Source: Nitrospiria bacterium (GTDB lineage Bacteria > Nitrospirota > Nitrospiria > DASWJH01). From it: DNA of 36,605 nucleotides. Below are positions 6,284 to 29,502 of the stretch, one piece after another. The notes beneath the pieces were generated by a model, which was not told the DNA's origin, searched no databases, and saw only the letters and a list, made by a program, of their open reading frames with translations. Numbering within the stretch: position 1 is the stretch's first letter; the number at the start of each line of letters is the position of its first letter. The DNA is taken from positions 1 to 36,605 of the forward strand of contig DASWJH010000091.1 in assembly GCA_036397255.1 (NCBI GenBank). Reading direction: 5' to 3'. Position numbers and translations under genes: made by a program.

Positions 6284-6284
6284 T

Positions 6285-6410
6285 AATACCATCCATTGAT
6301 AAGTCCGAGGGCAGGCCATTAGTTCAGTTGTAGACCCCTTGCTTCACACTCCCTAACTATCCATCAATTCGAAGCAACCAAATAAAACCCATCAAAATTA
6401 GAAAAAAGGG
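6285..6410 (+). repeat. tRNA-Val 5'-half repeat, copy D (most diverged)
   Basis: The tRNA-like part is about 6313-6349 (GGCCATTAGTTCAG ... CTTGCTTCACAC), ending directly after the anticodon-loop sequence TTCACAC, as in the other three copies. The upstream TAATAATA...CATTGATAA block and about 60 bases of the shared tail (to about 6410) can be aligned by eye with the copies at 19.9, 23.0 and 28.8 kb. Substitutions in the D-arm region and the missing 3' half mean it cannot be a working tRNA. Confidence 0.65.
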
Positions 6411-6495
6411 TTTCTGTTTAGGGTTGGGTTATTAATTTTGCAAAAATGAAAATTCTCGTTATTATTAAGTAATAGACACCAAAGAGGAGAAGGAA

Positions 6496-6675
6496 ATGCC
6501 TGAACCGAAAGAAAGTTATGCCCGATGCATTTCAAATCCCAATTTTATTAATCGCTTCTATGAAATTTTTATGGCCAGTCACCCCGATATTAAATCCCTA
6601 TTCAAAAACACGGACTGGGATAAACAAATGGAGCTTCTTAAAAAAGGGGTTTCCATGATGATATTATTTGGATAG
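6496..6675 (+). pseudogene. Globin-like gene truncated by the IS256-family insertion (59 codons remain)
   Basis: A strong ribosome-binding sequence (AGAGGAGAAGGAA) precedes ATG 6496. The remaining peptide (MPEPKESYARCISNPNFINR, then FYEIFMASHPDIKSLFKNTD) resembles the first helices of bacterial single-domain globins, with the FYxxFxxxxPxIKxLFxNTD pattern. The reading frame is intact until codon 59, and the stop codon (6673-6675) overlaps the start of the insertion element. The rest of the globin, including the expected proximal histidine, is not found after the element, so the gene is dead. The family call rests on remembered pattern only. Confidence 0.55.
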
Positions 6676-8008
6676 TGTAAAGTATTATGTGTGAAATTGA
6701 GGGTTGAAAAAATGGCGTTTTCCAACCAAGATAAAGTGTTCAAACCCAATCAAGGAGGAAAACGCCATGATGGAACTCAGTATCAACGTACCACAAATTC
6801 GAGAGTTTTTAAATCAAATTGTTGAGGCACCTGCAAAGATATTCGAGCTGTTACGTGTGGATGTCAGAGAATCGATGAGCCGTTTTTAAATGAGCTCATG
6901 GAATCGGAGATTACTTTCTTTTTAGGCCGTAGCCGCTATGAGCGGACAGGGAAACGGGGCAGACCCAACCATCGAAATGGTTATTATGCAAGAGGGTTTA
7001 CCCTCAAAGGCATCGGCGGAGTTTGTGTATCGAATCCGCGGGATCGGCTGGGGAAATACAGGACCCAGGTGCTGCCGCGCTATCAGCGCTATGAATCCCA
7101 GATCAAGGAGGATGTATCGCTTTTATTTTTAACCGGGGTGTCGACCCGGTCGCTACAGTTAATTTCTAAGCGGCTATTGGGAAGGAACATCTCTCACACG
7201 GAAATGAGCTTGGCGAATAAGGAATTAACCCAAGCGGTGGATGCCTGGCGAACCCGCGATTTATCTGATCTTTCGATCAAGTACCTGTATGTGGATGGGG
7301 TACTGTTTGAGATGCGTTTATCGGGTGGAATTGAGAAGGTGGCGGTATTGGTGGCCATTGGGGTGGATGCCCAAGGGGTCAAGCATGTGGTGGGGATGCA
7401 GGCTGGGGATAAGGAATCTGCGAGCAATTGGCGGGAGATGTTTCGGGATTTAAAGAGCCGGGGGTTAAAGGGTGAGGCAGTTCAACTTGGGGTTATGGAT
7501 GGATTGCCGGGGTTGGAGAAAGTGTTTGAGGAAGAGTTTCCCAAAGCGGATGTACAGCGTTGTCAGGTGCACGTGGCCCGAAACGTTTTAGCCAAGGTTC
7601 CATCCCGACACAAGCAGGAGGTGGCTGATGATCTTCGAAGCATCTTCTATGCCTCCAGCTACCCTAAGGCCCAATCCCAATGGGAGGTCTTCCAGAAAAC
7701 CTGGAAAGATGAGCTTCCCTCTGCAACCCAATGCCTTTCTCAATCGCTCCAGAAGTGTTTGACCTTTTACAAATTTCCCCAGGAGGAATGGATATCGATT
7801 CGAACCACCAATGTGATTGAGCGATTAAACAAAGAGTTTAAACGAAGAACCAAGCCCATGGAGATCGTGGCGGGAGAAAGTTCCTGCTACAGACTTCTGG
7901 CTTTTATAGCATTAAAGATGGAGTTGGCTTGGAGGAAAACGCCTGTAGGAAAGGTCACCCAACGATTACCCTGGTTCACTAATTTCACACAAAATGATTG
8001 ACAGTACC
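6671..8008 (+). mobile_element. IS256-family insertion sequence, about 1.34 kb
   Basis: The ends form imperfect inverted repeats of about 25-28 bases. The left end (from about 6671, with AGTGTAAAG...TGTGTGAAATT) matches the reverse complement of the right end (AATTTCACACAAAATGATTG to about 8008). Over a 25-base core (6674-6698 and 7981-8005) I count 20 matches. Length and the single transposase are typical for IS256. The flanks (6662-6670 and 8009-8017) show no clear 8-9-base target duplication, and the downstream flank is not the missing globin part, so one side has probably been rearranged. Confidence 0.85.
6767..8001 (+). pseudogene. IS256-family (mutator-type) transposase interrupted by a -1 frameshift
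   Basis: The first frame starts at ATG 6767 after AAGGAGG and runs to TAA 6887-6889 (MMELSINVPQIREFLNQIVE ... RESMSRF). The homologous sequence continues in the -1 frame (LNELMESEITFFLGR) and ends at 8001. Joining at the TTTTT run (6883-6887) restores one continuous protein. In the long downstream frame (from 6898) the DDE residues are visible: Asp133 (YVDG), Asp201 (VMDG) and Glu308 (TTNVIERLNKEFKRR), plus the family CxxH (RCQVH). Either one T was lost from a six-T run, or ribosomes slip there. IS256 transposases are normally single frames, so decay is the simpler reading. Confidence 0.88.
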
Positions 8009-8140
8009 GGTATTTTTAATGCTTTTTATTTCAGCAGGTGTTAATGATGAAAAATCTATTTTCTTAGATTTGGGAATGTTTTCTAAAATAAAAAATCCAT
8101 TTGGTGAAACTTCTAGGGCCTGGGTTAATCGAAAAATAAG

Positions 8141-8368
8141 GATATTGAACTTGCCCGAATGAAACCGCAAAGCCTGCCGCAATCTCCAAGGGTTGTTATG
8201 GAGTCAGGGAAGGGGAATATAAATCAGTGAAAATCCACTCGGTTCGAAGGCCCCCACCAACTCATTTTCCTCGACGAAGCTTTTCTGGGGGGTCTTCCAA
8301 CTCACAGACCTTGCCTAAAAAAGGAAAGAGGTTCAGGATTTCCTTGAAGCACAAGAGATCCCCAACCA
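8141..8368 (+). pseudogene. Decayed tyrosine-recombinase (integrase) tail fragments
   Basis: Two pieces match the C-terminal tail of the integrase fragment at 26666-26935. Bases 8141-8164 read DIELARMK (there DLELARMK). Bases 8301-8368 read LTDLA-stop-KRKEVQDFLEAQEIPNH (there LTDLAQKRKEVQELLEIKESPNQ), with a CAA-to-TAA change. About 136 unrelated bases separate them. A stop lies upstream of the first piece, and no catalytic part remains. They mark an old integrative element at this spot. Confidence 0.6.
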
Positions 8369-8376
8369 TATAAAAG

Positions 8377-8499
8377 TTAAAAATCGCGTTCGAATTCCTC
8401 AAAGACAACACCAACCAAACCTTGTAAGCCAAGATACTGAAAAAAAATGATTGCATTGTGAAACCCTCTCTCAAGTTCCTTACTATCTTGTCCAGTCAT
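8377..8499 (-). CDS. Small hypothetical protein, 40 aa (possibly truncated)
   Basis: ATG 8499 is preceded by a strong AAGGAGGGG sequence with an 11-base spacer, 8 bases after the stop of the upstream small gene, so the two look co-transcribed. The product starts MTGQDSKELERGFHNAIIFF and ends FEEFERDF. I recognise no family. The 3' end approaches the integrase-tail remnant on the other strand (8301-8368), so the gene may have been cut short by rearrangement. Confidence 0.4.
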   Translation of the reverse strand: MTGQDSKELERGFHNAIIFFQYLGLQGLVGVVFEEFERDF

Positions 8500-8507
8500 T
8501 GACCTAA

Positions 8508-8687
8508 TTACCCCTCCTTCAGAACATTCCTTGCCACTTTTACCATCTCGTCAATTTTATTTAAAAGGTCGCCTATGTTGGGGAGAAACACTGGAGAATC
8601 AGGGTCAAGTTCTTCAATCTCACCGCCGAAGGACTGAATCAGTCCTCCAATACTCTTTAGATTTTGTTTGCTGACCTCGGTTAGCAT
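8508..8687 (-). CDS. Small hypothetical protein, 59 aa
   Basis: The frame reads MLTEVSKQNLKSIGGLIQSF ... NVLKEG. It is amphipathic, probably helical, with an acidic middle (GEIEELDPDSP). No family is recognised. The ribosome-binding sequence is weak (AAAGGA about 16 bases upstream). Support comes from protein-like composition and the tight coupling to the following 40-codon frame, whose ribosome-binding site overlaps the end of this gene. Confidence 0.4.
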   Translation of the reverse strand: MLTEVSKQNLKSIGGLIQSFGGEIEELDPDSPVFLPNIGDLLNKIDEMVKVARNVLKEG

Positions 8688-8917
8688 GTTAATTTTTTAT
8701 TTTTCCTTTCTACATTCTGAGTTCATATTAGAAAACCATTTTTTTATCATCCCAATTGAAAGACGAAACACTAATTATAACATAAATCTCTTAAGGTTTT
8801 AAAGATTAAATAAATGAATTTTAATTAGGTAAAAAATTGACCTATTTCAAATCAGAAATTAAGCAAGGTCCAACCTTTCATTGATAAAAATCCTTATATT
8901 ATTTGGAATTCTGATTT

Positions 8918-9253
8918 ATGGTTGCTCCTACTTCCCTTGGAAATATCCATATGCAAACTTTGAGAGAAGAATTGGAGTGTGAACCTTACGACCCGACCTG
9001 GTTGGTGGAACTTGCCAAAAAGCAATTACGAGATGAACCCTGGATTGCTGAAGCTCTCAAAAAGTGTACCTGGTGTTTTAAATCCAAAAACCATATTTAT
9101 TTTATTAATCCAGAGAACCCCAACGAACCCGGTTCGGCCTTCCAGCACGAAAAGTGTATTTCTTTAATCTCCCCAACAGAAGGATGGCTACTTCTTGATA
9201 TTCTCGAAGGGAATCATGTGGGCGCAGTTGAGTTTGCAGAAAAGAAAAAGTAA
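8918..9253 (+). CDS. Hypothetical protein, about 100-111 aa
   Basis: No family is recognised. The product is small and soluble, with a CTWC pair (residues 50-53) and a later Cys (CISLIS), and it contains NHIYFINPENPNEPGSAFQH and GWLLLDILEGNHVG. The first ATG (8918) has no ribosome-binding site, whereas the in-frame ATG at 8951 (MQTLREELECEPYDP) has TTGGA at a usable distance, so the shorter form is likely. It is followed 17 bases later by the LuxR-type gene, suggesting one transcript. Confidence 0.6.
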   Translation: MVAPTSLGNIHMQTLREELECEPYDPTWLVELAKKQLRDEPWIAEALKKCTWCFKSKNHIYFINPENPNEPGSAFQHEKCISLISPTEGWLLLDILEGNHVGAVEFAEKKK

Positions 9254-9270
9254 ATTGTGAATAATAAATA

Positions 9271-9501
9271 ATGAAAAATCTCATTAGAAATGAAAGCAAA
9301 AACATCCTTACCAAAAGAGAGCAAGAAGTTTTAAAGCTCCTCGCTGAAAGTAACACGGTGAAGGAGGTTGCCACTATCCTGGGTGTAAGCTACACAACCG
9401 TGGATGCTCACAAAACTAAAGTAATGCGAAAGATCGGGGTGAATAACCGGGTTGGCCTTGTATTTTATGCTATCCGAAAGGGGATCATAAAATTGATTTA
9501 G
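9271..9501 (+). CDS. Stand-alone LuxR/GerE-type helix-turn-helix protein, 76 aa
   Basis: The whole protein is one GerE DNA-binding domain: LTKREQEVLKLLAESNTVKE, then VATILGVSYTTVDAHKTKVM and RKIGVNNRVGLVFYAIRKG. There is no receiver or ligand domain, so activity is not obviously signal-gated. It probably acts as a small transcription regulator, perhaps for the neighbouring small gene. The ATG at 9271 is close to the previous stop; no clear ribosome-binding site is seen. Confidence 0.9.
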   Translation: MKNLIRNESKNILTKREQEVLKLLAESNTVKEVATILGVSYTTVDAHKTKVMRKIGVNNRVGLVFYAIRKGIIKLI

Positions 9502-9860
9502 ACTTTGGACCACAGGAAATTATAAATATAAAAACTCTAATCTATTCCCTGCCTCACTCCCATCCTGGCAATAAAAAGCCTTTTATAAATCCTTCCCGGT
9601 CAAGTTTGATACATAGGTTTTGGGATGCCTGACCCACTGGGAAGGTAAGCCTTGATTCTTCCTTCTGGCCCAATAGCTAAAATAATTTTCCCTCAACAGT
9701 TCAGAGGTGTAAAAAATTAGACTTGACCTAACATATAATGCCTGAAAAACCCTTCTCTTTTGTGAATCTAAAAATGGTTAACCTTAGATTTCTGTGGAAT
9801 TATTGATTAAGGGTAAGAATTCATGAATATAAGGGTAAATGTGGATAACCATTGGGTCAA
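9502..9860. other. Intergenic region without a supported gene
   Basis: I find no protein-like frame on either strand. A TATAAT at 9734-9739 has no matching -35 sequence at a 16-18-base distance. The region separates the plus-strand regulator from the long minus-strand block. Confidence 0.5.
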
Positions 9861-9885
9861 GGGACGTCCAAAAAAACGACGTCCC
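9861..9885 (-). terminator. Hairpin downstream of the small exported-protein gene
   Basis: GGGACGTC (9861-9868) and GACGTCCC (9878-9885) form a perfect 8-bp stem with an A-rich loop, 30 bases after the stop codon at 9916. There is no T-run after it on the minus strand, so terminator function is uncertain. Confidence 0.45.
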
Positions 9886-9915
9886 TCTCGAAGGTTTCAA
9901 AGAGTTAAATTTAAT

Positions 9916-10281
9916 TCAGCGATTGGGACCTCCGCCAGACCCTTTACCCCCTCCTGGGCCCATTCCTGTGCCTGGTTTCATTTTTCCCATGCCGCCCTCA
10001 GGTGGCATCTCCGGCAAGGTTAAACCGCGTTCTTTTGCCCGTTCTTTCATGTGAATGTGGTGTTCTAGGCGGATATTCTCCCGTTCCTCAACGGTTTTCG
10101 CGGCGCGGATTTTTTCCCGGAATTCCACCCGTTCTTTAGGGGTCATCAGCTCACTCCCGTAAATTTTCTCTTGTTCCTGGATTTGTTTTTCCGTTTTCTT
10201 CTGCTCTTCTGAAAACCCTAACCCGGCGGAAAATATCAACCCGCCTGTTAAGACCGACATAATCAGTTTTCGTTTCAGCAT
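9916..10281 (-). CDS. Small exported protein with Gly/Met-rich C-terminus, 121 aa
   Basis: The start at 10281 is chosen because GAGGAGA lies just upstream and because the product then begins with a signal peptide (MLKRKLIMSVLTGGLIFSAG, cleavage likely near GLGFS-E). The mature part is charged and helical: YGSELMTPKERVEFREKIRA, then KTVEERENIRLEHHIHMKER and AKERGLTLPEMP. It ends in a GMGKMKPGTGMGPGGGKG low-complexity tail. Similar periplasmic proteins are common in proteobacteria but have no known function. The His/Met content and the efflux operon directly upstream on the same strand hint at a metal link, which is speculative. Confidence 0.8.
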   Translation of the reverse strand: MLKRKLIMSVLTGGLIFSAGLGFSEEQKKTEKQIQEQEKIYGSELMTPKERVEFREKIRAAKTVEERENIRLEHHIHMKERAKERGLTLPEMPPEGGMGKMKPGTGMGPGGGKGSGGGPNR

Positions 10282-10374
10282 GTTCTCCTCTCTTTCTTCG
10301 TACATTGGTTTCATAGGAGGTTCATCCATCTTTCCTTGCAAAAATAATAAAGGCAAAGAATGTGCAACCTCATT

Positions 10375-10400
10375 GTCTTATATCAAAAACATTATAAGAC
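10375..10400. repeat. Inverted repeat between the efflux operon and the small exported-protein gene
   Basis: GTCTTATA (10375-10382) and TATAAGAC (10393-10400) are perfect 8-base arms around 10 bases. It could be an operator of the gene starting at 10281 or a weak terminator of the upstream operon. The stem is A+T-rich and has no T-tail. Confidence 0.4.
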
Positions 10401-10551
10401 CTTGTATCCTCATGAATAACCATTCAATTTGGAAGATAATTCCTATTAAAATTTATTAAGAAACTGATGCTTTTTGCCTCTTATTGACTAGGCTAAGATG
10501 TCCTGTTCGTCATGAAACATTTCTTATCACACCTCTGTCTTTCAAAATGGA

Positions 10552-12225
10552 TTAGCGGGTTATATCCGATCTCCAGTCTATATTGGGAAAGGAGTAATTT
10601 CCAGGGAAGCCTTTAGGATCCAGCGAGATTCCTCGGCGTTCTAGTAAACTGCCCTCGGCTAGGAACAGTCTAACCAGTGCAATTCGGTAACTGATAATCG
10701 CTTCCGCTTCTGCAATTTGGCTGGCGAGTAAGTCCCGTTGGGCCTGGGCGACCAGCAGGGCCGTACTGGATCCCACGTTGAAACGCTCTTTTTCGGCGTT
10801 CAATGTTTCTTCCTGAAGGATGCGGGTTGCCCTGCTCGCCGATATCTGCTGGCGGGCTCGCTCCAATTCATTGATGGCAAGCTTCACATCGAGCTGGACC
10901 AATTGCCGGAGGTTGGCCACCGCTTCGGCGGCCTGACGCCTGGACGCCCGGGCCGCCAGGTCTCTCCCTTCAGCCGCCCGGTTTCTAATGAACTGGCTGA
11001 ATCGTATTCCAGCGGCGACGTCGTAGGTATTTCCGTCCAGCTCACGGAATGAATCTGAGAAGGTATCGGCAAAACCCGTTTTTCCCAACGTCATGAACAG
11101 TTCCAACCGCGGCAACAGGCCGTTGCGGGTCACGATCGTTACCAGACGGTTCTGGTTCAGCCGGACGACGGCCTCCCTCAAGTCCGGACGGAATCGTTCA
11201 GCGAGCTGAAGGCGGTCCGCCAAATCCGTGACCGGTTCCGGGTCGGTACCGGGTTGGCTGATCGGATTGATCCTGAGGTCCACGGGGCCGGTCAGGTCGG
11301 AGCTGATGTGCCGTAGAAGTCTCAGGCGGTTTTCCTCCAGTAGGCTTCGTGCGTCGATGAGGTCCTGCCCCCGCCTGGAGACCTCGGCGCGGGCGGCTGC
11401 CGCCTCCACCGCCGGAAGCGTTCCGACCTCGATGTGTAGCTCCACTTCATCCCGTTGCTGCCGTGCGACGGCCAGCGATTGTTCAAAGATCTCGATTTCC
11501 TGGTTGGCGAGCAGGTAGTTCCAATAGGCAATTTCCGTATTCCCCAAAAGGGTCTCGGTGAAACCCCTCAGCTCGTAAAGACTGGCGAGGGTCTCGAGGT
11601 CTGCCTGGCGTATACTGACCAGATTGACCGCCGGCCCGAATCCCTGTAACAGGGATTGGGTGAGGCTGAGGCCGACCCTGGCGGATTCCTGCTCGGGCGT
11701 GCGGTCGGAGAGACTGCGGCGATGGTCGATGGTGGCCTCAAGGGTTGTTCCGGTGGGTAGTTTCTGACGAAGTCCGGCAGAGGAAACGGTATCGCTTCCT
11801 TCCACATTGAACTGGGTTCCGGTGGATCGGGCCGTTTCGCTCGACCTTTCCTCAACATACTCCAGCCCCACAAATACCTCCGGGTCGTATTCTCCCCGTT
11901 CGATCTGCTCGAAAGTTCCGGCAATGACGGGATTGATCTGTTGCACGTGCAGGTCACGGTTGTTCTGTATGGCCAGCATGACTGCCTGTTCGATGGATAG
12001 GTCCACCGGTCCGTTCTCTGAAACGGTAAATAAAGGCTCCGCGTTGTTCATCCGGGGCTGGGGTATTTCCGTTATACTGACATCATAATCAGCCTCCATA
12101 GGGGGGGTTGGAAGCAAGCTTATGTGGGTGTCCTTTTCCCCCAGCAGGGCACAACCCACGGTCAGTAAAACGGGAAGAACCGGCAACACGCAAGTTACTA
12201 ATTTGCTCCGGCCATAAAACTTCAT
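10552..12225 (-). CDS. TolC-like outer-membrane efflux channel, 557 aa
   Basis: The start at 12225 ([20 protein letters not shown]) is preferred because its ATG overlaps the TGA of the pump gene (ATGA), as between the other genes of the operon; upstream in-frame codons lie inside that gene. The signal peptide ends at [13 protein letters not shown], a possible lipoprotein cysteine. Two OEP repeats follow, with typical stretches [49 protein letters not shown] and [21 protein letters not shown]. It would form the trimeric outer-membrane duct of the tripartite pump encoded directly upstream. Length is normal. Confidence 0.92.
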
Positions 12226-15200
12226 TTGTGTTGAGCCCTTGGTTCGGGATGGAATAATGAATAAACGGCGGGAATGAGGACCAGCGTAATCAGCGTCGAC
12301 CCTGTGAGTCCTCCGATGACCGCGCGTGCCAGGGGGGCCTGGGCGTCTGCGCCTTCCCCGATGCCCAGGGCCAGGGGCAGTAAGGCAAGGATGGTGGTCA
12401 GCGTCGTCATCAGAATCGGGCGAAGCCGGCGCCGTCCCGCTTCGGCGACCGCTTCCCGCGTGCCCATTCCCCGCTGACACAGTTGGCCGGCCTGATCCAC
12501 CAGGAGAATGGCGTTGTTGACCACGATACCGCCCAGCATGATGCAGCCGATGTACGACTGGACGTTGAGGGTCGTATTCGTCAGGAACAGAATCAGCAGG
12601 ACGCCGATTGCCGCCAGGGGAACGGATGCCATGACGATCAAGGGATTGCGCAGGGATTCGTACTGACAGGCCAGGACCATGTACACCAGCACCAGCGCCA
12701 GCATCAGCGACGTGATCAGTTCCGAGAACGATTTTTGCTGTTCTTCGAAATTTCCGGCAACCCTCAGATCATATCCCACGGGACGCGGAATTTGATTCAA
12801 CCGGTCTTGGACGTCCGCGGCCACGGAGCCCATGTCCCGTCCCGCGATATTGGCGGTGACGGTTACCACCCGCTGCTGATTTTTACGGTCGATCAGGATC
12901 GGCCCGCGGGTTGTTTCGGTGGTCACGATGCTGCGGAGCGTTACCTGTTCTCCGGACGGTGTGGTCAGGGCCAGGTCAAGAACCTCGTCCAGGGATTTTT
13001 TTTCCGCATCTTTGAGCTGCACCAGGATGCGGTAAGAGTTTCCCTGGGACCTGTACTCCCCGACTTTCGAGCCGGCAATCGCGGTTTCTAAGACTTCCGT
13101 GACGTCCCGCACGCTCAGGCCCACATCCGCCACCTTGTCCCGGTCCACGCGGATTTCTTGCTGGGGAATGCCGGACTCCCGGCTGATATCGATGTCGGTG
13201 ATTCCCGGCACATCGGAGACGGACCCGGCCGTCTGCCGGGCCAGGACGTCCAGCGTGTCGAGGTCGAATCCGCGAATCTCGATGGCCAGTCCTTCGTCGC
13301 CGCCCAGAAGGCGCTCCAACAGAAATTGTCCCTGGGGGGCGCGGGTGCGAACTTCCATTCCGGGAATATTGCCGGAGAGACGGCGCCGCAGGTCCTCGGC
13401 GATTTCCACGTTGGACCGTTCCCTTTGGACCACGGGTTCAAGGGAGAGGCGGATTTCGCCCTGTGCCCCCGAATCGGGCCGCCATCCCGACGCCCCCACG
13501 CTGACCACGGAGGCCATCGCTTCCGGTACATTGGCCCGGATAATTTCTTCCATGAGGCGTGTCTGCTCGTCCACCAGTTCAAGCCGTGTGCCGATTTCCA
13601 TCTCGCCCGTCACCCGGACCTCCCCCTCATCGGTGGGGGGAAGAAATTCCGTCCCGATCATGGGCAGCAGAAGCAGGCTTGCACCCAGGAGCCCCGCGGC
13701 GCCTGCAACCGTCAGCATCCGGTGACGAAGCACCTTCTGCAAGAGATCGCGGTAATTGTTTTCAAGGCTCCTGAAAAAGGCCTGCGCGGCGGCGGCCCAT
13801 CGGTCTATCCAGTGCGCCGATTTCTCATCGGCCTTCTCCTGTGATTTCAGGAATCGGGAGGCCAGCATCGGCACCAGACTCAAGGCCACCAGCAGAGAGC
13901 AGATCAGTGAAAAAATGATCACGTAGGCGAGTTCCTGAAAAAGGAGACCGGATACGCCTTGAATGAAGATCAGGGGGAGAAAGATCACCAGTGTCGTAAT
14001 GGTGCTGGCGATGATGGCCGGTCCGACTTCACGGGTTCCTTCCACGGCGGCGGTTTCCGGCCGTTCGCGGTCCTCATCACGTTTCCGGAAGATGTTTTCC
14101 AAAACCACGATGGAACTGTCCACCATCATGCCGACGCCCAGCGCCAGACCCCCCAGTGTCATCAGATTCAGTGTGAAGCCACCCAGATAAATCAGGGAAA
14201 AGGTTGCGATCACGGATATGGGGATCGCCAGGGCGATGACCACTGTGCTTCGAAGGCTTCGCATGAAGAAAAGCAGGACCAGGACGGCCAGCCCGCCGCC
14301 GTACAGAACCGATTGGGTGACATTGGCGATGGACCGCTCGATAAAATTGCCCTGGTTGATGACCGGAAAGATCTTAATCTGCGGAAGGGCTTCATTGGTC
14401 GCGTCGATTTCGGCGAGCACGCGCCGGGAAACTTCGACGGTATTGGCGTCGGCCTGCTTTCGAATCGCCACCCGGAGGCCGCGTTCCCCGTTGACACGGA
14501 CGATTCGCGTCAGCTTTTCATAGGTGTCGTGGACCTCGGCGATTTGGCCGAGGGTCACGACCGCGCCGTTGCGCTGGACGACGACCGTGTTCCGGATTTG
14601 GTCGAGATTCGCAAACTCGGCCGCCGCCCGGAGCGTGACCTCATACCTGCCCTGTTCGATCCGTCCGGCGGGAAGATCCAGATTGGCGTCTTCGATCGCC
14701 GCGAGGACACGGTCGAGGGGCAAATTCAACGCCTTGACCCGTTCGGGGTCCAGCTCGATCCGGACCTCTCTGTCATAGCCTCCCCAGAGGTCGACCTGGG
14801 CGACCCCAGGAATGTGGGCGAAGCGGTAGCGGATCTGGTCTTCGATCAACTGGGTGAGTTCGACAGGATCCAATTTGCTGGAGATGCCCAGCAGAACCAC
14901 CGGAAAGCTGGCGACATCGAATTTACTGACCCGCGGCCGTACGATGTCATCCGGCAACTCGCTGATCTCATCCTCCAGTTGGGCCTGAACGTCAAGTGCG
15001 GCCGTGTCGATGTCGGTCCCCCAGACGAACCGGACGCGCACCGTGCTGTTCCCTTCGGAGGAGAGGGAGGTCATTTCTTCCACGCCGGGCACGGTTCCGA
15101 TGATCTCTTCGATGATCTGGGTGACCAAACGCTCCATGACTTCCGGGCTGGCCCCTTCATACTGTGTACGGACGGTGAGCGTGGGAAGCTCGATACTGGG

Positions 15201-15311
15201 GAGCATGTCGATCTTCAGACGGCTTAAAGAAAACACGCCGATGACCACAACCATCAGTGTCACCATGGTGACGAAAATCGGACGCTTTACACTGAAACTC
15301 GGTAATCTCAT
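12222..15311 (-). CDS. RND efflux transporter, inner-membrane permease (AcrB/HAE-like), 1029 aa
   Basis: The N-terminus [20 protein letters not shown], two large periplasmic loops and about 12 membrane helices give the standard AcrB-family plan at full length. TM4 reads [18 protein letters not shown]: Asp398 matches the first proton-relay aspartate of AcrB, but the second is Ser399. That is the pattern of the SwrC/MdtB-like branch rather than classical AcrB. No CusA-type methionine set is obvious, so organic compounds are more likely than copper, but the substrate is unknown. The start overlaps the adaptor stop (15308-15311), and the stop overlaps the channel start. Confidence 0.95.
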
Positions 15312-16519: not shown

Positions 16520-16576
16520 AAACGATGATTGCTTTTCCAGCAGGGTGTTGAAAAAGGTTGTATTTTTTCAATAGGT

Positions 16577-16685
16577 CGTCATTCCCGCGAAACTTTTCCC
16601 CGTATGCTTAAATCGGGGAGCGGGAATCCAGAAATTGTTGATTTTAAAGAGCCTGGATTCCCGATAAAACCATTCGGGAATGACG
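16577..16685 (-). repeat. REP-like palindromic repeat, copy 2, with a nested hairpin
   Basis: This is the reverse complement of the unit at 751-833 (shared CGTCATTCCCGCGAA, AGCGGGAATCCAGAA, GTTGATTTT, CCATTCGGGAATGACG). Its short hairpin loop is enlarged by about 26 bases, which themselves carry CCCCG/CGGGG arms. It sits in the only sizeable gap of the sigma-to-channel gene row and may modulate transcript stability or read-through there. Confidence 0.8.
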
Positions 16686-16726
16686 GATTCGGGTATTTCA
16701 ACATCCTGCCGGAGTTATTTCTCTTT

Positions 16727-18145: not shown

Positions 18146-18149
18146 AAAT

Positions 18150-18166
18150 ATTGCCGTTGCGGCAAT
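18150..18166 (-). promoter_or_regulatory. Hairpin abutting the sigma-factor start codon
   Basis: ATTGCCG and CGGCAAT are perfect complementary arms around a 3-base loop, ending only 4 bases before the TTG start. In the mRNA it would occupy the place of the ribosome-binding site. As DNA it could be an operator. A TAAAAT box is visible slightly upstream (about 18171-18176, minus strand), but no good -35 partner. Confidence 0.45.
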
Positions 18167-18337
18167 GTGTATTTTACACCAGGGGGATCATTGAATGGAA
18201 ATATAGATGGCCAAGGAAAGGGGTAACTATCCCGCCGACGCAACCTCCCCGGAGGTTCGACGGAGCGTTCGACCGAGCCCACGGCCAAGCCTCGCCGGGG
18301 GACTTTTAAAATCTAAGGCCGGAGTTTTGAATTGGAT

Positions 18338-19804: not shown

Positions 19805-19895
19805 TGGTTTTTACGCTCCCGAACAAAACCAGGATAACCTTTTCTATTCAAAAAAATCAATGGGGGGCCATTAGGCATCTGACAGAGGGGATCTT

Positions 19896-20114
19896 ACCCG
19901 TAATAATATAACCCACCGAAATTCCTAGAGGTGGACGATTAGCTCAGTGGTAGAGCGCTTGCTTCACACTCCTAAATAACCTGCCGACGAGGACCCGTCA
20001 GAACTCAAAATACCTATGTCCAACAAAGGGATAAGTTGAGAACGGATTTTGGTTGGAATCGGTCTGAATGTGGCCGTTTGTGGCGGGATCGAGCACGAAA
20101 TGAGGACATAAATT
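19896..20114 (+). repeat. tRNA-Val 5'-half repeat, copy B
   Basis: The upstream block GTAATAATATAACCCACCGA is followed by GGACGATTAGCTCAGTGG at 19933 and the piece ends at TTCACAC (19969). The shared tail follows: AACTCAAAATACC, GTCCAACAAAGGGATAAG, TGGAATCGGTCTGAATG and the pair GAGCACGAAAT/GAGGACATAAATT (20091-20114). The 3' half of the tRNA (stem complement, T-arm, acceptor) is absent. It faces the same way as the other three copies. Confidence 0.8.
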
Positions 20115-20245
20115 ATTTTACGGTTTTGGATTTCTTACCGCTTCTGCTTACAAATTTTATGTATTAAGGGAGTTAAAAATTAAGGATTAAGTTGAAAAGG
20201 AAAGGGCAATACTAAAACTCACAATAAACGTTATTTTTAGGTGGA

Positions 20246-22813: not shown

Positions 22814-22989
22814 ATTTTATGCAGTGTTTTAAAGATGAACTAATTAACAGATGGAGTTTGAAGTCACACCTATACATTGTAAATGTATAATAATTCTAGG
22901 GAATGTCAAATAAACGCGGGCGCCGATTTAAGGAAATATTATTCGTAATAATAGGTTCTACCCTTGATAAAACGATGAATTGATCAATG

Positions 22990-23165
22990 GACAATCTGCA
23001 TACAAACCCTTAATAGACCTATTATGTGGGCGATCAGCTCAGTGATAAAACGCTTGCTTCATACTCTATATTTACCTTCCAACGAGAACCAACCAAAACT
23101 CAAAATATCCATATCCAACAAAGGGATAAGGTTAGAACTCATTTTGACTGGAATCGGAAATCCGG
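22990..23165 (+). repeat. tRNA-Val 5'-half repeat, copy C (tail cut by RAYT-derived sequence)
   Basis: CATACAAACCCTTAATAG leads into GGGCGATCAGCTCAGTGA at 23028, and the tRNA part ends at TTCATAC (23064). The tail aligns with copies A and B (AACTCAAAATATCC, TCCAACAAAGGGATAAG, CTGGAATCGG) and then stops abruptly at about 23159, where sequence related to the RAYT element begins. D-arm changes (GTGATAAAA) show decay. A second partial upstream block (GTAATAATAGGTTCTACCC) is at about 22946. Confidence 0.75.
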
Positions 23166-23290
23166 GGACACGATCCCTAATTCCCCGATCGGTAGTTATG
23201 TTTCGAATGATGTAATGGTGCCACCGAATTCCACGAAATGCCGATGTATTTAAGAAATTCTCCAAAGATGAGCCAAGACGAGATTTGACC
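23166..23290 (-). mobile_element. Decayed RAYT-element fragment
   Basis: The motif at 23264-23290 repeats the 27-base unit found upstream of the RAYT gene at the left edge. Reading the minus strand from it, about 45 bases later a stretch (around 23206-23233) matches the RAYT 5' coding end; with one frameshift it reads EFGG-HHYIIRN (compare IEYPDAYYHVMNRG). The fragment ends in GGGGACACGATCCC, a sequence often seen near such elements (from memory). It joins repeat copy C to the truncated HD gene, so both were cut here. Confidence 0.55.
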
Positions 23291-23300
23291 CGTTTCCCTA

Positions 23301-24170
23301 ATGATCCGCGATATTTGTGCTCTGATTCAAAAAAGAGTTGTCCCATCCAATCGACTCTCAATTTGTGGTTATAATATTCAGAGTTTTCTACACGATATAC
23401 TTTCAGGTGATATTGATGCTGATCGTATGGATTATTTGCTTAGGGATTCTCATATGTGTGGGGTGAATTATGGCCTTTATGACCCAAATAGAATTCTAAA
23501 GAGCATGTGTGCATACGGCCGAAATGACACAATGGAATTACATGTAGGACTTCGTTTTAGCGCTCTTGGGGCAGTCGAAGATTTATTAATATCCCGTTAT
23601 CAAATGCATGGGCAGATTTATGGACATAAAACTAATCGGGCTTGTAATGCTATGCTTGACCTCATTCGTAAACAACTTAGGAAGGCAAAATGGAAATGGT
23701 ATTCCTCTTGTAAAACAATGGAGCAACTTTTATCAGCCTTTTCTGATCTTGACGATTTCTCGTTTAACCGGAAGTTAAGAGAGAAATCAATAGACAACGG
23801 CGCAGGAAAGGTAAAAGAAATAGCAGAAGAACTTTTTGTTAAACGGAAATTAGTGAAGAAAGTTTATGAAGAGAGGGTTGATCTTTCAAAAAATAAACAC
23901 AAAAGAGAGCATTGGGAAAAACAAAAAAGAAGCTTTGAGAGGAAAAAAATATTGTTTGTCCCAGATGAATTCAAGAATAAGGGTCCATCGGTAAAACAAA
24001 AAAATTATTATTTAAAAGTTCTAAAAAAAACAAAAGATGGATTTTATAAAGTACATGAACTAAAAGAATGTTCAACAGTGGTTCAATACCTACCAGAGGA
24101 AGAGGTTGTTTTTAGAATATATTCAAAGGGTGTGGATTTTGAAAGAGCAAAGAAAATAATGCCAGATTAA
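23301..24170 (+). pseudogene. HD-superfamily phosphohydrolase (SAMHD1/YwfO-like), N-terminally truncated
   Basis: The 289 residues begin in mid-domain (MIRDICALIQKRVVP) and contain the family block SGDIDADRMDYLLRDSHMCG, then VNYGLYDPNRIL and SRYQMHGQIYGHKTNRA. Relatives normally have about 130-150 residues before this, with the H...HD metal-binding residues. Those are missing, because the sequence immediately upstream is the RAYT-derived motif with a stop in frame (23286-23288). The ATG at 23301 has no ribosome-binding site. A catalytic product is therefore unlikely. Lys-rich, A+T-rich codon use matches the adjacent restriction-modification island. Confidence 0.8.
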
Positions 24171-24416
24171 AGTATTTTAGAATAAAATCAAACCAAAGAG
24201 TTTACAGGATTTCCTTTAAACTTCCCGCGCCTATATTGAATTGATAATTAAATATTATTAAATATCAACTCTTTTAATTCCTTAGGAAACCATTTCCTTA
24301 AAAACCTCATTTTGTTGTCTACCTTTCTCCATAGGGTCCCTCCGTTATTTAAATCTTTACCCTCGATTAGAAATTGATTTTAGACCGTTGTGATTTTTTT
24401 AAAGAAAAAGTCCGCT
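24171..24416. other. A+T-rich spacer before the controller gene
   Basis: I find no protein-like frame. The spacer separates the HD fragment from the restriction-modification genes and ends at the controller-box sequence. Confidence 0.5.
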
Positions 24417-24441
24417 ACTTATAGTCTGTAGACACTTTGTC
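24417..24441 (+). promoter_or_regulatory. C-box operator overlapping the controller/endonuclease promoter
   Basis: ACTTATAGTCTGTAGAC followed by ACTTTGTC has the layout of known C-protein boxes: two imperfect dyads with a central AGTC-TGTA-GAC core. A plausible promoter, TAGACA (24429-24434) with an 18-base spacer to AATAAT (24453-24458), overlaps the right half. That would fit activation from the left dyad and repression from the right one. The leader to ATG 24474 is short and has no ribosome-binding site, as often seen for C genes. Confidence 0.75.
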
Positions 24442-24473
24442 ATCATTTTGCCAATAATCCCACCTTATAAATT

Positions 24474-24686
24474 ATGAGCAACATTAAAAAACAATTTGGT
24501 GTGATAGTTCGGAAACTACGGAATAAAAAGGGTCTCTCACAAGAGGCCTTTGCGGATCTCTGTGGGCTCCATAGAACATATATAGGGGCTGTGGAAAGAG
24601 GGGAGAGAAATGTCTCCCTTGAAAATATAGAAAAAATTGCAAAAGCCCTCCGTGTGAGTATTTCGTTTATGTTCAGCCAAAAATGA
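24474..24686 (+). CDS. Restriction-modification controller protein (C protein, XRE-type HTH), 70 aa
   Basis: The whole protein is a lambda-repressor-like HTH: IVRKLRNKKGLSQEAFADLC, then GLHRTYIGAVERGERNVSLE and NIEKIAKALRV. Size and context are those of C proteins, which delay endonuclease expression until methylation is established. Its TGA overlaps the ATG of the endonuclease gene (ATGA, 24683-24686), so the two are translationally coupled. The upstream C-box is its expected target, giving a self-limiting loop. Confidence 0.93.
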   Translation: MSNIKKQFGVIVRKLRNKKGLSQEAFADLCGLHRTYIGAVERGERNVSLENIEKIAKALRVSISFMFSQK

Positions 24687-25294
24687 AAATAATTAAGACG
24701 GAATATCTTATAAAAGCTGGATCATTTCCTAAATCCCAAGCATGGGAGACTATATATAGGGAAATTCAAAAAGCAATCAAAGCAATAACGTGGCCTAGGG
24801 GAAGTAAGAGTTTCACTATTTATCCTGAAAGCGGTAAAAAGCGGGGTAAAGGTAATGGAGTGAAACCGTTAAAGGATGCTTTTTGCTTTAGCCTAAGTAA
24901 AAAAGGATGGAATCTTGAAACCCGTTTGCCAATTGGGGTGAGAAAATACCCTGGACCCATTGATGCAACAAAACAGTTAGGTGAAAACCAGTTTTTTGCT
25001 GTGGAGTGGGAAACGGGAAATATTTCCTCCAGTCATCGGGCTTTGAACAAAATGGCGCTCGGAATTAAAAATGGGATGTTAAAGGGAGGAACTTTGGTTT
25101 TGCCAACAAGGGGGCTTTATAAATACTTGACAGATAGGGTTGGAAACATTGATGAGATAGAACCGTATTTTGAATTATGGAGTTCGATGCCTTTTAAGGA
25201 TGGTATTTTGGCCGTAATTTCAGTTGAACATGATGCTACTAGTTTAGAGGTTCCACGAATAAAAAAGGGAACTGATGGCAGGGCTCTTATTTGA
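24683..25294 (+). CDS. BamHI-like type II restriction endonuclease, 203 aa
   Basis: Several blocks match BamHI as I remember it: ITWPRGSKSFTI, GPID, EWETGNISSSHRALNKMALG, LTDRVGN and EIEPYFEL, in the same order and spacing and at similar length (BamHI is 213 aa). The catalytic set is present: Asp94 (GPID), Glu108 and Glu110 (VEWETG), with Glu79 matching the BamHI Glu77 position. Cleavage at GGATCC or a close relative is therefore predicted, but recognition-helix residues cannot be judged by eye. The C-terminus ends shortly after KKGTDGRALI, lacking the BamHI C-terminal tail. It overlaps the methyltransferase gene tail to tail by 8 bases. Confidence 0.9.
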   Translation: MKIIKTEYLIKAGSFPKSQAWETIYREIQKAIKAITWPRGSKSFTIYPESGKKRGKGNGVKPLKDAFCFSLSKKGWNLETRLPIGVRKYPGPIDATKQLGENQFFAVEWETGNISSSHRALNKMALGIKNGMLKGGTLVLPTRGLYKYLTDRVGNIDEIEPYFELWSSMPFKDGILAVISVEHDATSLEVPRIKKGTDGRALI

Positions 25295-26540
25295 AAATTT
25301 GGTCCAAAAAGTTTATTTGGTTTGGGACTCTTTTCGGTTCATCCTCTGTGAGGCGATATTTATAGGTTGAATGCCCTGAACGTTTTCGTAATTTCAAGGC
25401 CTCTTCAGTAAACAACCGATTAAGATTCTTTCTTATTTTTTCTAAATGTTCCTGTTGTTCCCTTATTTTTTTGAATCTTTCTATAATTGGTTTACAACTC
25501 TCAATTTCGGATCCAATCCATCTTCTCCCCTTCATCTCGGCTACGATATATGTTGTTCCCGAGCCCCCAAACGGGTCCATAACCAGATCTCCCTCCTCTG
25601 TGGCAATATCTAAGACTCTATCCAACAGCTTAATTGATAATTCATTTGCCCCTCTGGTTTTAAATTTCGCGTGACGAACTGGAGGAATATCATTCCAAAC
25701 ATCTGTCAGGTTGACACCTTTTGGGTTCATTTTGTCCTTGTATCCCCCATAGTCTTTTATTTCTCCCCCGCAGTGCCTACAGGTCTCCATTGGTAATCGA
25801 GAAGGATGAAAGGTTTTTGGTAAGCGTCCCTTAATGAAGTAAAGCAGACTGTAATGTGAGGGATAGAGCCTTTTTGGCACCGGTAGACTAAATTTAATAT
25901 CAACAGTTATCCAATGTCGGAAAGTCAGGAATTTATCCAGATAAGAGGAAATATGGATGTTCCACTTAGGGAGGTTATAAACAAACAGGGAACCATTAGG
26001 TTTCAGTATCCTGCAACATTCTTCTAACCATCCATAGCACCAGCCTAGATAGTCGTATTTCTCTAATTGATCGTTAACCTTACTCCCATAATTTTTTCCT
26101 AAATTAAAAGGTGGATCCGCAAAAATACAGTCAACGGAGTTTTCCGGGAGGCTGCTCAATAAACTAAGACAATCTGTATTATAAAGCTCACCTAGAGAGG
26201 TTTGAAAAATAGGGGTTAATTTTTTAGGAGGAGAAGAGGGGGGTTTTCTTTTATAAATCTCCACTTCTTCTTTTAATACAAAAGGGGCGATGGCAGGGTT
26301 CTCATGAAGCATATTCTGGATTTCTTTTGGAATCTTCCCGGCCAGAATTGAAAGCTCGGTTTGATTGATTGAGAAAATTTTTGATATTTTTTTTATGAAT
26401 TTTTCAGATGGCTTCCCTTTCGAGTGTTCAAGTTGGCTTATATAAGATTTATCCACCCCCAATTTCTTTGCGAGTTGAAGTATGCTAAACCCCTTTGTTT
26501 TCCTAAGCGATTTAAGTTTCCCCCCAAAATTCATTCTCAT
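25287..26540 (-). CDS. Restriction-modification DNA methyltransferase with N-terminal XRE HTH, 417 aa
   Basis: Residues 1-65 form an XRE-type HTH (KLKSLRKTKGFSILQLAKKL, then GVDKSYISQLEHSKGKPSEK). The catalytic part has motif IV DPPF (142-145) before motif I MDPFGGSGTT (321-330), the beta-class order of amino-methyltransferases. A CRHC pair (254-257) lies in the insert between them, the likely target-recognition region. It should protect the site cut by the adjacent endonuclease. M.BamHI makes N4-methylcytosine, but DPPF alone does not decide between N4-cytosine and N6-adenine here. The HTH may allow self-repression. Upstream palindromes at 26573-26603 are candidate operators. Confidence 0.92.
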   Translation of the reverse strand: MRMNFGGKLKSLRKTKGFSILQLAKKLGVDKSYISQLEHSKGKPSEKFIKKISKIFSINQTELSILAGKIPKEIQNMLHENPAIAPFVLKEEVEIYKRKPPSSPPKKLTPIFQTSLGELYNTDCLSLLSSLPENSVDCIFADPPFNLGKNYGSKVNDQLEKYDYLGWCYGWLEECCRILKPNGSLFVYNLPKWNIHISSYLDKFLTFRHWITVDIKFSLPVPKRLYPSHYSLLYFIKGRLPKTFHPSRLPMETCRHCGGEIKDYGGYKDKMNPKGVNLTDVWNDIPPVRHAKFKTRGANELSIKLLDRVLDIATEEGDLVMDPFGGSGTTYIVAEMKGRRWIGSEIESCKPIIERFKKIREQQEHLEKIRKNLNRLFTEEALKLRKRSGHSTYKYRLTEDEPKRVPNQINFLDQIFK

Positions 26541-26572
26541 CCCCCCACAATTAAGAAGATTTATAACGCAAA

Positions 26573-26603
26573 AACTTTATAAAAGTTGAGTGAATTAGTC
26601 AAC
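26573..26603. promoter_or_regulatory. Two palindromes upstream of the methyltransferase gene
   Basis: AACTTT-ATA-AAAGTT (26573-26587) is a perfect dyad and GTTGA-N9-TCAAC (26585-26603) overlaps it. They lie 33-63 bases upstream of the methyltransferase ATG, where an HTH-bearing methyltransferase would be expected to bind its own promoter. Confidence 0.45.
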
Positions 26604-26665
26604 TATTTTCTGGTTTGCATTCAAAATTTTGAACCAATAAAGATTTGCCCTAATTTGGCGATTGT

Positions 26666-26935
26666 GTGAAAAAGGGTCTCAAAGACGACGGGTTTCATGA
26701 CTTTAGGCGAAGTGCAGTTAGAAATATGGTACAGGCGGGAATCCCGGAGATAGTAGCAATGAAAATATCCGGGCATAGGACGCGCTCAGTCTTTGACCGC
26801 TATGCGATTGTGAGTTCTAGAGATCTGGAACTAGCAAGAATGAAACTTACAGACCTTGCCCAAAAAAGGAAAGAAGTTCAAGAGCTCCTCGAAATAAAAG
26901 AGAGTCCCAATCAAATACTCATTCGGAAAACATAA
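26666..26935 (+). pseudogene. Tyrosine recombinase (integrase) C-terminal fragment, 89 aa
   Basis: The frame holds the second half of an integrase catalytic domain: His11-Asp-Phe-Arg14 (HDFRRSAVRNMVQAG), His37 (SGHRTRSVFDRYAI) and the nucleophile Tyr46. The first catalytic arginine and the whole DNA-binding part are missing; the apparent GTG start is only the edge of the open frame. It directly follows the methyltransferase promoter region, so the 5' part was probably replaced when the island was assembled. Its tail resembles the remnants at 8141-8368. Confidence 0.85.
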
Positions 26936-27043
26936 CAACAGGATATAAGGGACAAGCAGAGTTTCCCTTAGCAAACATTTTTGCAAAGGCCCCCTTCTCT
27001 AACCGATTCCAAGTGTTCACTTTTTAACGAGTCTGAGAATTAA

Positions 27044-27130
27044 AAATTATCGGATGAAATAAAGTATAACGATATCAGCAAACGTTTTGACAATCCTGAA
27101 GAATATTTCAATCGCTTTGTAATACCCTGA
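27044..27130 (+). pseudogene. Possible C-terminal remnant of an unknown gene
   Basis: A short frame between two stops reads SDEIKYNDISKRFDNPEEYF and ends NRFVIP. It is protein-like but has no start codon or family. It may be the leftover end of a gene. The remainder of 26936-27131 holds nothing I can support. Confidence 0.25.
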
Positions 27131-27131
27131 G

Positions 27132-28103
27132 TTATAGCCACCTTAAAGGAATCTCTGATCTTTTAATATTTACCACGACATCTGGATTCAAAGATGAAAT
27201 AATCATCTTAAGCGATTGTTGGTTTAAATCACTACTTATTGTAGGGCCAATTACTAATTCAACAATTGGGAATGGAATACCATATACGTCATCGACTGAT
27301 GCCTTAATAGCATTTTCAAAGCTCACTGTATAATATGGGATTACGTTACCCTTGTAACTTCTGAAAAATGGAAGGTCGGTACTCTGGCCTCTGTCAAAAA
27401 GTAGATCCACTGAACTAAAGTATACTAATCTCCATTCACGTTCTTGATGGAAATCTGGATGTTTAAAGCAAAATAAATATTCACCAACAGTTAAGGAGAA
27501 GGCCTGACAATATTCTGGCAAGAGAGTTGAGGTCACATCCTCTAACCCTTTTCCCGTTGTGGATGTAGACAAAGAGTTCAGAAAGGCCCCAATCGTTTCA
27601 TCTACTAATCTGGTTTGATCTGAGACATCATAGATTACTTTACGAAGAACGCATCTTCTCTCGATGAACCGAATTGTATGAAGGAAATCTATACCAATGG
27701 CATAGCCGCCACCTTCTCCCCGGTATCCTCTCCATTGGCTTAACAAATTTCCATCCTCGCAAAAACATGTAGCGAAGACAGAAAATCTATTAGAAAAAGG
27801 ATCAAAAGTCTGTACAATTCTTTTAATAAACTCTCTCTGAATTTCATTTAGGTTGGAGTCATTGGACCTCGACTTTAGTCGGGTTTCTATTAATGATCTG
27901 GAGTATTGTAATTCAGATGAGTCATTCATATACCTGAGATCGGTCATCCATATACTCTTACTTGATAAAATTCCAATTAACCCATCTGCTGATGTGTAAT
28001 GGAATAATACATTTGGAAATTCTTTATGATAAACACTCCATTTAGATAGTATTTCCTCTTTCAGTTGCGAAATAATGCTTTTTTCTGAATCTGAAATGTT
28101 CAT
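27132..28103 (-). CDS. DUF2971-family protein, 323 aa
   Basis: Near the N-terminus the family signature is visible (LFHYTSADGLIGILSSKSIW, then MTDLRYMNDSSELQYS, about residues 33-68), with later conserved-looking blocks SVFATCFCEDGNLLSQWRGY and HQEREWRLVYFS. The family has no established biochemical function to my knowledge; it is often found in variable genome regions. The HYTS and REWR patterns are conserved enough to suggest an enzyme. It is soluble, with no signal peptide. The ATG has GGA at a usable distance and lies 13 bases after the upstream gene, so the two form an operon. A+T-rich, like the neighbouring restriction-modification genes. Confidence 0.82.
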   Translation of the reverse strand: MNISDSEKSIISQLKEEILSKWSVYHKEFPNVLFHYTSADGLIGILSSKSIWMTDLRYMNDSSELQYSRSLIETRLKSRSNDSNLNEIQREFIKRIVQTFDPFSNRFSVFATCFCEDGNLLSQWRGYRGEGGGYAIGIDFLHTIRFIERRCVLRKVIYDVSDQTRLVDETIGAFLNSLSTSTTGKGLEDVTSTLLPEYCQAFSLTVGEYLFCFKHPDFHQEREWRLVYFSSVDLLFDRGQSTDLPFFRSYKGNVIPYYTVSFENAIKASVDDVYGIPFPIVELVIGPTISSDLNQQSLKMIISSLNPDVVVNIKRSEIPLRWL

Positions 28104-28116
28104 ACTAAATCCAGGT

Positions 28117-28674
28117 TTAGTTCTTAATCGAAATCCCCGATTTAAAATTTTCTATCTCAACGCCAAGAAGATAAATACCTCCTCTATTTTCCACTGCAAT
28201 GGCACTGGCTTGGTTTCCTTTATTCGTTGTCAGTTTCAAGAATGCTATATTGGGAGGTTTGTTATCATTAGCTGTGCCAAACTTACTCCTATCGGGGTGT
28301 AATATAATAGGATAATCATCGTCAGTAAAAAGAAGTGCTGATATCTCTATTTCCAAATCACTGTCTTTGATTCTTTTTTTAATTTCACACACAACCCGAC
28401 CAGTCTTTTTTTCTACTATCGACGTTCGTTTAAAGCCACTGAGTATTGTGTAGTTATTTTTATCTTTTAAGTTAATTGAATTATTCTTTATTTGTGCAAT
28501 AGGGCTCTTATTCGGCCCCAATAATTTAAAGGTTGCTGCAAGCTCGCCAGTTTCAGGATTTTTCGCAAGTGAGATCAAAGGAATCCCTTTGTATTCTATT
28601 GGATTCGTAACATTGCGATAGTATATTCCGCCGATTTTTGCACTATAAGAATTAGCTGGTTCCCACAGGGTCAT
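28117..28674 (-). CDS. Hypothetical protein, 185 aa, first gene of the DUF2971 operon
   Basis: No family is recognised. The sequence alternates short hydrophobic and polar stretches (GGIYYRNVTNPIEYKGIPLI, SINLKDKNNYTILSGFKRTS, GRVVCEIKKRIKDSDLEIEI), which suggests a beta-rich fold such as a beta-sandwich or short beta-helix. There is no signal peptide, membrane helix or catalytic motif. AAAGGA lies about 10 bases before the ATG. It is followed by the DUF2971 gene after 13 bases. A partner or inhibitor of the DUF2971 protein is possible but is only an inference from position. Confidence 0.7.
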   Translation of the reverse strand: MTLWEPANSYSAKIGGIYYRNVTNPIEYKGIPLISLAKNPETGELAATFKLLGPNKSPIAQIKNNSINLKDKNNYTILSGFKRTSIVEKKTGRVVCEIKKRIKDSDLEIEISALLFTDDDYPIILHPDRSKFGTANDNKPPNIAFLKLTTNKGNQASAIAVENRGGIYLLGVEIENFKSGISIKN

Positions 28675-28758
28675 AAATTATCAGTCCTTTTGAGGTTGAA
28701 AATTTTTATTGGAAATACTTCTTTTAATTTTCCAAGGACTATACCATTATTCAGAAAT

Positions 28759-29014
28759 GAGCACAATTCTGAGCACAGTTGACGGGGCGGGACCAATCTG
28801 TAATAATACAACCCCTTGATAATCTTATTAAGTGGGCGATTAGCTCAGTGGTAGAGCGCTTGCTTCACACTCCTTACTTACCTACCAACTCTAACCCATA
28901 AAAACTCAAATAACCTATATCCAACAAAGGTATAAGTTAAGAACATTTTTTGGCTGGAATTGGCTTGAACGTGGTCGTTTGGGGTGGGCTCGAGCACAAA
29001 TTGAGCACAAAATT
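28759..29014 (+). repeat. tRNA-Val 5'-half repeat, copy A (best preserved), with flanking GAGCAC pairs
   Basis: GTAATAATACAACCCCTTGA leads to GGGCGATTAGCTCAGTGG at 28834, and the tRNA part ends at TTCACAC (28870), i.e. position 38 of a tRNA-Val(CAC). The expected 3' strand of the anticodon stem is absent; TCCTTACTTACC follows instead. The tail shares TATCCAACAAAGGTATAAG and GCTGGAATTGGCTTGAACG with copies B and C. Paired repeats GAGCACAATT/GAGCACAGTT (28759-28780) and GAGCACAAATT/GAGCACAAAATT (28992-29014) stand on either side. Confidence 0.85.
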
Positions 29015-29119
29015 TTTTTTACCGCCTTTAATATCTGTGACTTTCACCTGGAAGAGGTCCTTAATGTATGTTCCCCCCCATTTACAAGCTCCTTTTCGGA
29101 ATTTTTTAATTACTCCTTA

Positions 29120-29442: not shown

Positions 29443-29502
29443 CAGCGGGATTTTATTTTTGATGAAATTATTCATATTCTAAATCAAAAGGAAAAAATAG
29501 CC

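Follow-up and report, generated by a model that had tools for sequence, protein, structure and literature searches.

Truncated tRNA-Val(CAC) 5' halves in a Nitrospiria genome as probable scars of stacked integrative islands

The Islander database tabulates 3919 islands, among which 3760 have a 3' tRNA fragment and 159 a 5' fragment; tandem arrays of two or more islands number 125, and only 4 arrays contain three or more (PMC4383910). Recombination with the 5' part of a tRNA gene is described elsewhere as much rarer (PMC6563490, PMC8371274), the relevant passage of PMC6563490 citing Zhao and Williams 2002 (J Bacteriol 184:859), and for pTN3-like archaeal integrases the attachment site is the tRNA 5' half (PMC8371274). 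Here, we examined four truncated 5' halves of a tRNA-Val(CAC) gene found on contig DASWJH010000091.1 (C91) of a Nitrospiria bacterium. This contig, analyzed over its whole length of 36,605 nt and referred to below as the window, belongs to a draft genome of 3.35 Mb in 122 contigs. The four copies are very probably the attachment-site (att) scars of a stack of integrative islands that were inserted successively at the tRNA-Val(CAC) gene, each bringing a promoter and a 5' half. An earlier interpretation made from the letters of the window (the sequence-only reading) had proposed insertions of this kind and regarded the carriage of a 5' half as unusual, which the Islander counts bear out: such islands are rare, though not unprecedented.

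Truncated tRNA-Val(CAC) halves, shared arms and the intact gene

All four halves lie on the plus strand (Table 1), and each is broken off where the 7-nt anticodon loop ends, at its last base. As previously noticed, the 3' half of the tRNA is absent from every copy, and ARAGORN calls no tRNA gene in the window. The sequence-only reading had also described one upstream block shared by all copies and a break directly after TTCACAC. The block and the loop-end break are present in all four, but in copy 3 the loop reads TTCATAC and extra DNA sits between the GTAATAATA block and the 5' half. Compared with the intact 37-nt 5' half, copy 4 has 0 mismatches, copy 2 has 1, copy 3 has 5, and copy 1, which is 1 nt shorter, has about 6. 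Copy 1 is read as the original host 5' half and as the most decayed of the four. A profile of the block, whose training set includes the four copies themselves, matches them with expect values (E) of 4e-23 to 2e-18, and the next-best match in the window has E=4. Profile searches of the window, of the contig carrying the intact gene (C106), and of most of contig C15 from a distant relative (G005) revealed no further hidden copies.

Beyond the break, a tail is strongly common to copies 2, 3, and 4, and CCAACAAAGGGATAAG (with at most 2 mismatches) is seen three times in the window, compared to 0.07 occurrences expected by chance. The claim that every copy runs into this tail did not extend to copy 1, where the resemblance is marginal at best, its score being reached by 10, 51, and 138 of 500 shuffles in comparisons with copies 3, 4, and 2, respectively. 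Paired GAGCACA arm sites flank the loop site, with a P pair upstream of copy 4 and, in copies 2 and 4, a P' pair past the loop. Upstream of copy 4, where GAGCACAATTCTGAGCACAGTTGACGGG is found, a -35-like TTGACG begins one base past the second GAGCACA, and AATAAT follows 17 nt further on.

The genome contains a single intact tRNA-Val(CAC) gene, located elsewhere as had been anticipated, on the minus strand of C106 (positions 6015 to 6089). In a genome-wide search, the upstream block was found only at the four window copies and at this gene; the copies are thus neither scattered nor present in both orientations. This confinement argues strongly against the alternative retained by the sequence-only reading, i.e., a tRNA-derived dispersed repeat made of promoter, 5' half, and tail and spread by a mechanism unrelated to tRNA-gene integration. 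The presence of several promoter and half-tRNA units with a common tail would suit such a repeat. However, every copy lies on a single strand within one 22-kb stretch, the tail is homologous to the arms of integrase islands at another tRNA with an identical loop distance (see below), and the truncated-copy pattern was found in no other genome among 197 genomes of the class. We therefore consider a dispersed repeat very improbable. The P arm, GAGCACAATCTGAGCACAGTTGACGGG, is also found upstream of the intact tRNA-Val, beyond the promoter region, which is where an element transporting promoter and 5' half together should place it. A consensus scan upstream of the intact gene gave no promoter-like match, and the promoter proposed there is a candidate by its likeness to copy 4.

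Under the stacked-island interpretation, the integrase would cross over within the 7-nt anticodon loop, and attP, the site carried by the element, would be ordered as P arm, tRNA promoter and 5' half, loop, and P' arm. Insertion would split the resident gene, leaving its 5' half behind, fused to the incoming P' arm, as a truncated copy, while on the right, the promoter and 5' half of the element would be joined to the resident 3' half, so that a functional tRNA gene is reconstituted. This restored gene would receive the next element, and truncated 5' halves would consequently pile up from left to right in one orientation. In this order of insertion, C106 would lie to the right of C91, the tRNA would be driven by an element-borne promoter, and the insertions would have been catalyzed by an integrase that was since lost or that acted in trans. 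Copy 1 has no arm sites left, and those at copy 4 and at the intact tRNA-Val are complete. Such a loss on the left with intact arms on the right is expected if new elements enter at the intact gene on the right.

Arm architecture in relatives and orientation of insertion

A search using copy 4 and its flanks as the query covered 98 genomes, namely this one and 97 of the same class, to which the nearest genomes compared also belong. The tail occurs without a tRNA half at five places in four other genomes (E of 2e-10 to 8e-5). At three of these places (L064, L065, and L067), it comes after a truncated and reversed tRNA 3' half that is broken at the anticodon loop and that reads as tRNA-Arg(CCT) from its loop. 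The distance from the loop to P' is exactly 121 nt in Val copies 2 and 4 as well as in the three Arg sites, and the distance from P to the loop is 85 to 86 nt at Val (81 to 82 nt to TTGC plus 4) and 83 to 85 nt at Arg. In two genomes (G105 and G085), the P arm, at 85 nt from the loop, separates the C terminus of a tyrosine integrase from an intact tRNA-Arg(CCT), and both integrases are related by sequence to the window remnant described below. What lies between the P arm and the loop is the tRNA 3' half at Arg and the promoter region with the 5' half at Val. With a homologous P' arm and matching arm-to-loop spacing, the Val and tRNA-Arg(CCT) sites appear to form one att family, and the Arg architecture is the Val architecture turned round relative to the tRNA. 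The tail that had been taken for an element arm is indeed homologous to the arm of tRNA-targeting islands in relatives. The proposal that islands cross over in the anticodon loop while carrying promoter and 5' half is thus supported by the arms, their spacing, the integrase remnants, and the P arm upstream of the intact promoter region.

These comparisons also bear on a simpler history in which the tRNA-Val region was locally duplicated and then decayed without any integrase. Although partial copies clustered on the same strand fit that history, all four copies stop at the same base at the end of the anticodon loop, three of them run into a common non-tRNA tail that is absent at the intact gene, and the DNA between copies is unrelated from one module to the next. 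Furthermore, the loop-end break with shared arms also occurs at tRNA-Arg in independent genomes. Local duplication therefore seems extremely improbable.

Several results weigh against successive island insertion. The tail of copy 1 was missed by a profile made from the tails of copies 2 to 4, and decay is further advanced in copy 3 than in copy 2 and thus does not strictly follow position. No shared ends joining C91 to C106 were found, leaving these contigs unlinked, and a search for an empty site through the proteins flanking tRNA-Val in relatives found no conserved flank. No intact integrase is present in any window module, and remnants are present in two of the four. The missing integrases and the decay of copy 3, together with the small size of module 2 (just 3.1 kb, with one gene), would suit a history in which the att scars are real but the array was built by integrase-less cargo modules that entered or were exchanged at truncated copies, or by a multi-part island that arrived at once. 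Conversely, the loss of arm sites on the left and their integrity on the right match sequential use of the intact gene, and the integrase remnants point to an enzyme formerly encoded by some of the modules themselves. We consider assembly from cargo modules or from a multi-part island unlikely and retain the successive insertion of islands as the preferred interpretation.

To place the two orientations in the class, we refer to sites at which the P arm precedes a promoter and 5' half as 5'-type and to those at which it precedes a reversed 3' half as 3'-type. The 5'-type arrangement occurs three times in 270 class genomes, always at tRNA-Val(CAC): at copy 4, at the intact gene, and once in G005. 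In this distant relative, the gene upstream of the P arm encodes an ATP-binding cassette (ABC) transporter and not an integrase, and no truncated copy was found. The 3'-type arrangement occurs in 5 of 147 genomes, four times at tRNA-Arg(CCT) and once at tRNA-Arg(TCG). In three other class genomes (G035:C65:23711-24043, G031:C14:888-1228, and G059:C4:38054-38370), integrase matches are located no more than about 200 nt from tRNA-Val(CAC) matches, and this tRNA gene may host 3'-type islands as well. Outside the class, a pattern scan of a collection of 84,980 genomes returned two records, both metagenome-assembled genomes (MAGs), one of Verrucomicrobia (UBA6082, compared below) and one of Nitrospinota (L111). 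In the latter, tRNA-Arg(TCG) is preceded, with the usual spacing, by a P arm; the left scar was not found, the second match being an intact tRNA-Arg(TCT). Viral contigs gave no 5'-type matches, and three 3'-type matches among them were rejected since they are unlike the tRNA-Arg att sites.

tRNA-Arg(TCG) is associated with a 3'-type site in one class relative (L135) and with a 5'-type arm in the Nitrospinota MAG. We tentatively suggest, with somewhat less than even confidence in this reading as a whole, that a single integrase and att family, with attP spacing that matches in both cases, uses anticodon loops both ways, carrying either the 3' half or the promoter and 5' half. The switch in orientation could take place at near-palindromic loops, for example TTCGAA of tRNA-Arg(TCG). 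Given that the P arm abuts the -35-like box in the 5' type, integrase binding could affect tRNA-Val transcription. At the 3'-type site of L135, TTGACGGG comes after the P arm too, although no tRNA promoter is needed there, and 5'-type elements may have co-opted arm sequence as a -35 box. At tRNA-Val(CAC), incoming elements would repeatedly have rebuilt the gene by supplying a new promoter and front half, and the scars would record the successive insertions in order. The Val and Arg sites constitute a matched pair in which one arm geometry serves two different tRNAs in opposite orientations, and the choice of orientation by an integrase on a quasi-palindromic anticodon stem-loop is thereby directly testable.

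Modules, integrase remnants and neighboring genes

The copies delimit modules that are unlike in gene content and whose G+C content varies from 37 to 52% (Table 1). Left of module 1, the contig carries a GGDEF-EAL gene (4319 to 6283). The 93-residue frame in module 3 scores 25.2 bits, just below the curated Pfam cutoff of 27.1, and its aligned part shares 45 to 73% identity with integrases of class relatives, the majority of them encoded next to tRNA genes. The remaining Phage_integrase matches of the genome sit on other contigs, and the stretches of those contigs that were read showed no paired arms.

Table 1. Coordinates of the tRNA-Val(CAC) copies, arms, modules, and integrase remnants in the window
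Feature	Position	Strand	Description
Copy 1	6279..6349	+	Upstream block and truncated tRNA-Val(CAC) 5' half (half 6314-6349); no arm sites left
Copy 2	19900..19969	+	Upstream block and truncated 5' half (half 19933-19969)
Copy 3	22985..23064	+	Upstream sequence and truncated 5' half (half 23028-23064); loop TTCATAC
Copy 4	28834..28870	+	Truncated 5' half (28834-28870) identical to the intact tRNA-Val(CAC) half
P'-arm tail of copy 2	19970..20108	+	Paired sites GAGCACGAAATGAGGACA at 20091-20108, 121 nt past loop
Tail of copy 3	23065..23157	+	Paired arm sites lost
P-arm pair	28759..28777	+	GAGCACAATTCTGAGCACA, upstream of copy 4
Promoter-like TTGACG-17-AATAAT	28779..28807	+	Directly after P arm of copy 4; candidate promoter, consensus match only
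P'-arm tail of copy 4	28871..29009	+	Paired sites GAGCACAAATTGAGCACA at 28992-29009, 121 nt past loop
Module 1	6350..19969		IS256-type transposase (6898-8001), resistance-nodulation-division (RND) efflux operon, extracytoplasmic function (ECF) sigma factor, HATPase protein
Integrase remnant, module 1	8129..8381	+	Remnant of the C-terminal region of the same integrase, further decayed
Module 2	19970..23064		One PAS-GGDEF-EAL gene; 3.1 kb
Module 3	23065..28870		BamHI-type restriction-modification pair, DUF2971 protein, integrase remnant
Integrase remnant, module 3	26654..26935	+	C-terminal catalytic end of tyrosine integrase; 93-residue frame
Module 4 (start)	28871..36605		Rhs protein (29503-36150); reaches contig end

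In module 3, the BamHI-type restriction enzyme and the adjacent methyltransferase, which has a helix-turn-helix (HTH) domain, are encoded by convergent genes with an overlap of a few bases (24683 to 26540). The Rhs-repeat protein of module 4 comprises 2215 residues, and 42-residue repeats (126-nt period) make up a beta-propeller region at its N terminus. A repeat, CAAA-ATGA-CAAGACGAGATTTGACC, is present in tandem at the left contig end (333 to 410) and once in module 3 near copy 3 (23263 to 23301), and an inverted repeat of 67 nt with 88% complementarity pairs the left flank (751 to 817) with module 1 (16619 to 16685). On C106, the side adjoining the intact tRNA-Val, which is its element side, holds an AbiGi-like gene (6445 to 7194), two IS200-like transposases, and, at 10062 to 11879 (L027), sequences that match type II enzymes, one a methyltransferase and the other a restriction enzyme. 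The AbiGi-like gene and the restriction and methyltransferase matches suggest a defense-rich island.

Comparison with known systems

The closest counterparts are the 3'-type islands at tRNA-Arg(CCT) in G051, G085, G105, and G123, with left scars in G049, G071, and G088. They share with the window the paired GAGCACA arms at 83 to 86 and 121 nt from the loop but differ in carrying the 3' half and in their opposite orientation to the tRNA. In UBA6082, the start of a 450-residue integrase (PF00589) adjoins a paired GAGCACA site that closely precedes an intact tRNA-Phe, and on another contig, a truncated tRNA-Phe 5' half ends just past the anticodon loop and is followed by paired sites (L112/L117). 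This element thus resembles the window in its truncated 5' half followed by paired sites and in the P-type pair, here with an integrase, upstream of an intact tRNA. It differs in its arm spacings (measured in the same way, 70 and 145 nt), in integrase orientation, and in having a full-length integrase, and its two ends sit on different contigs. Because of the differing spacings, we regard it as another lineage that shares the 5'-half habit.

The pTN3-like archaeal elements also use the tRNA 5' half as attachment site, and transcription of the rebuilt tRNA starts from a promoter on the element side (PMC8371274), as proposed for the window. Their suicidal integrases, whose gene is split on integration, have no counterpart seen in the window. 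As for the 5'-fragment islands of Islander, it is the 5' part of the tRNA that travels with the element, a 5' fragment being left behind, and crossover in the anticodon region is common among them (PMC4383910). Likewise, an intact tRNA and matching fragments occur here in one genome, with the break at the anticodon loop, a known integrase sub-site. Each member of the array has its own tRNA fragment, as in an Islander tandem, but not its own intact integrase. The window further differs from these islands in having at least four in a row and in its unjoined contigs. We rejected the idea of a categorically new kind of element, given that 5'-fragment islands are already tabulated in Islander. The window is best regarded as a rare variant of a known insertion habit: 5'-type islands, at least four of them in a stack, with an att geometry matching the 3'-type islands of relatives.

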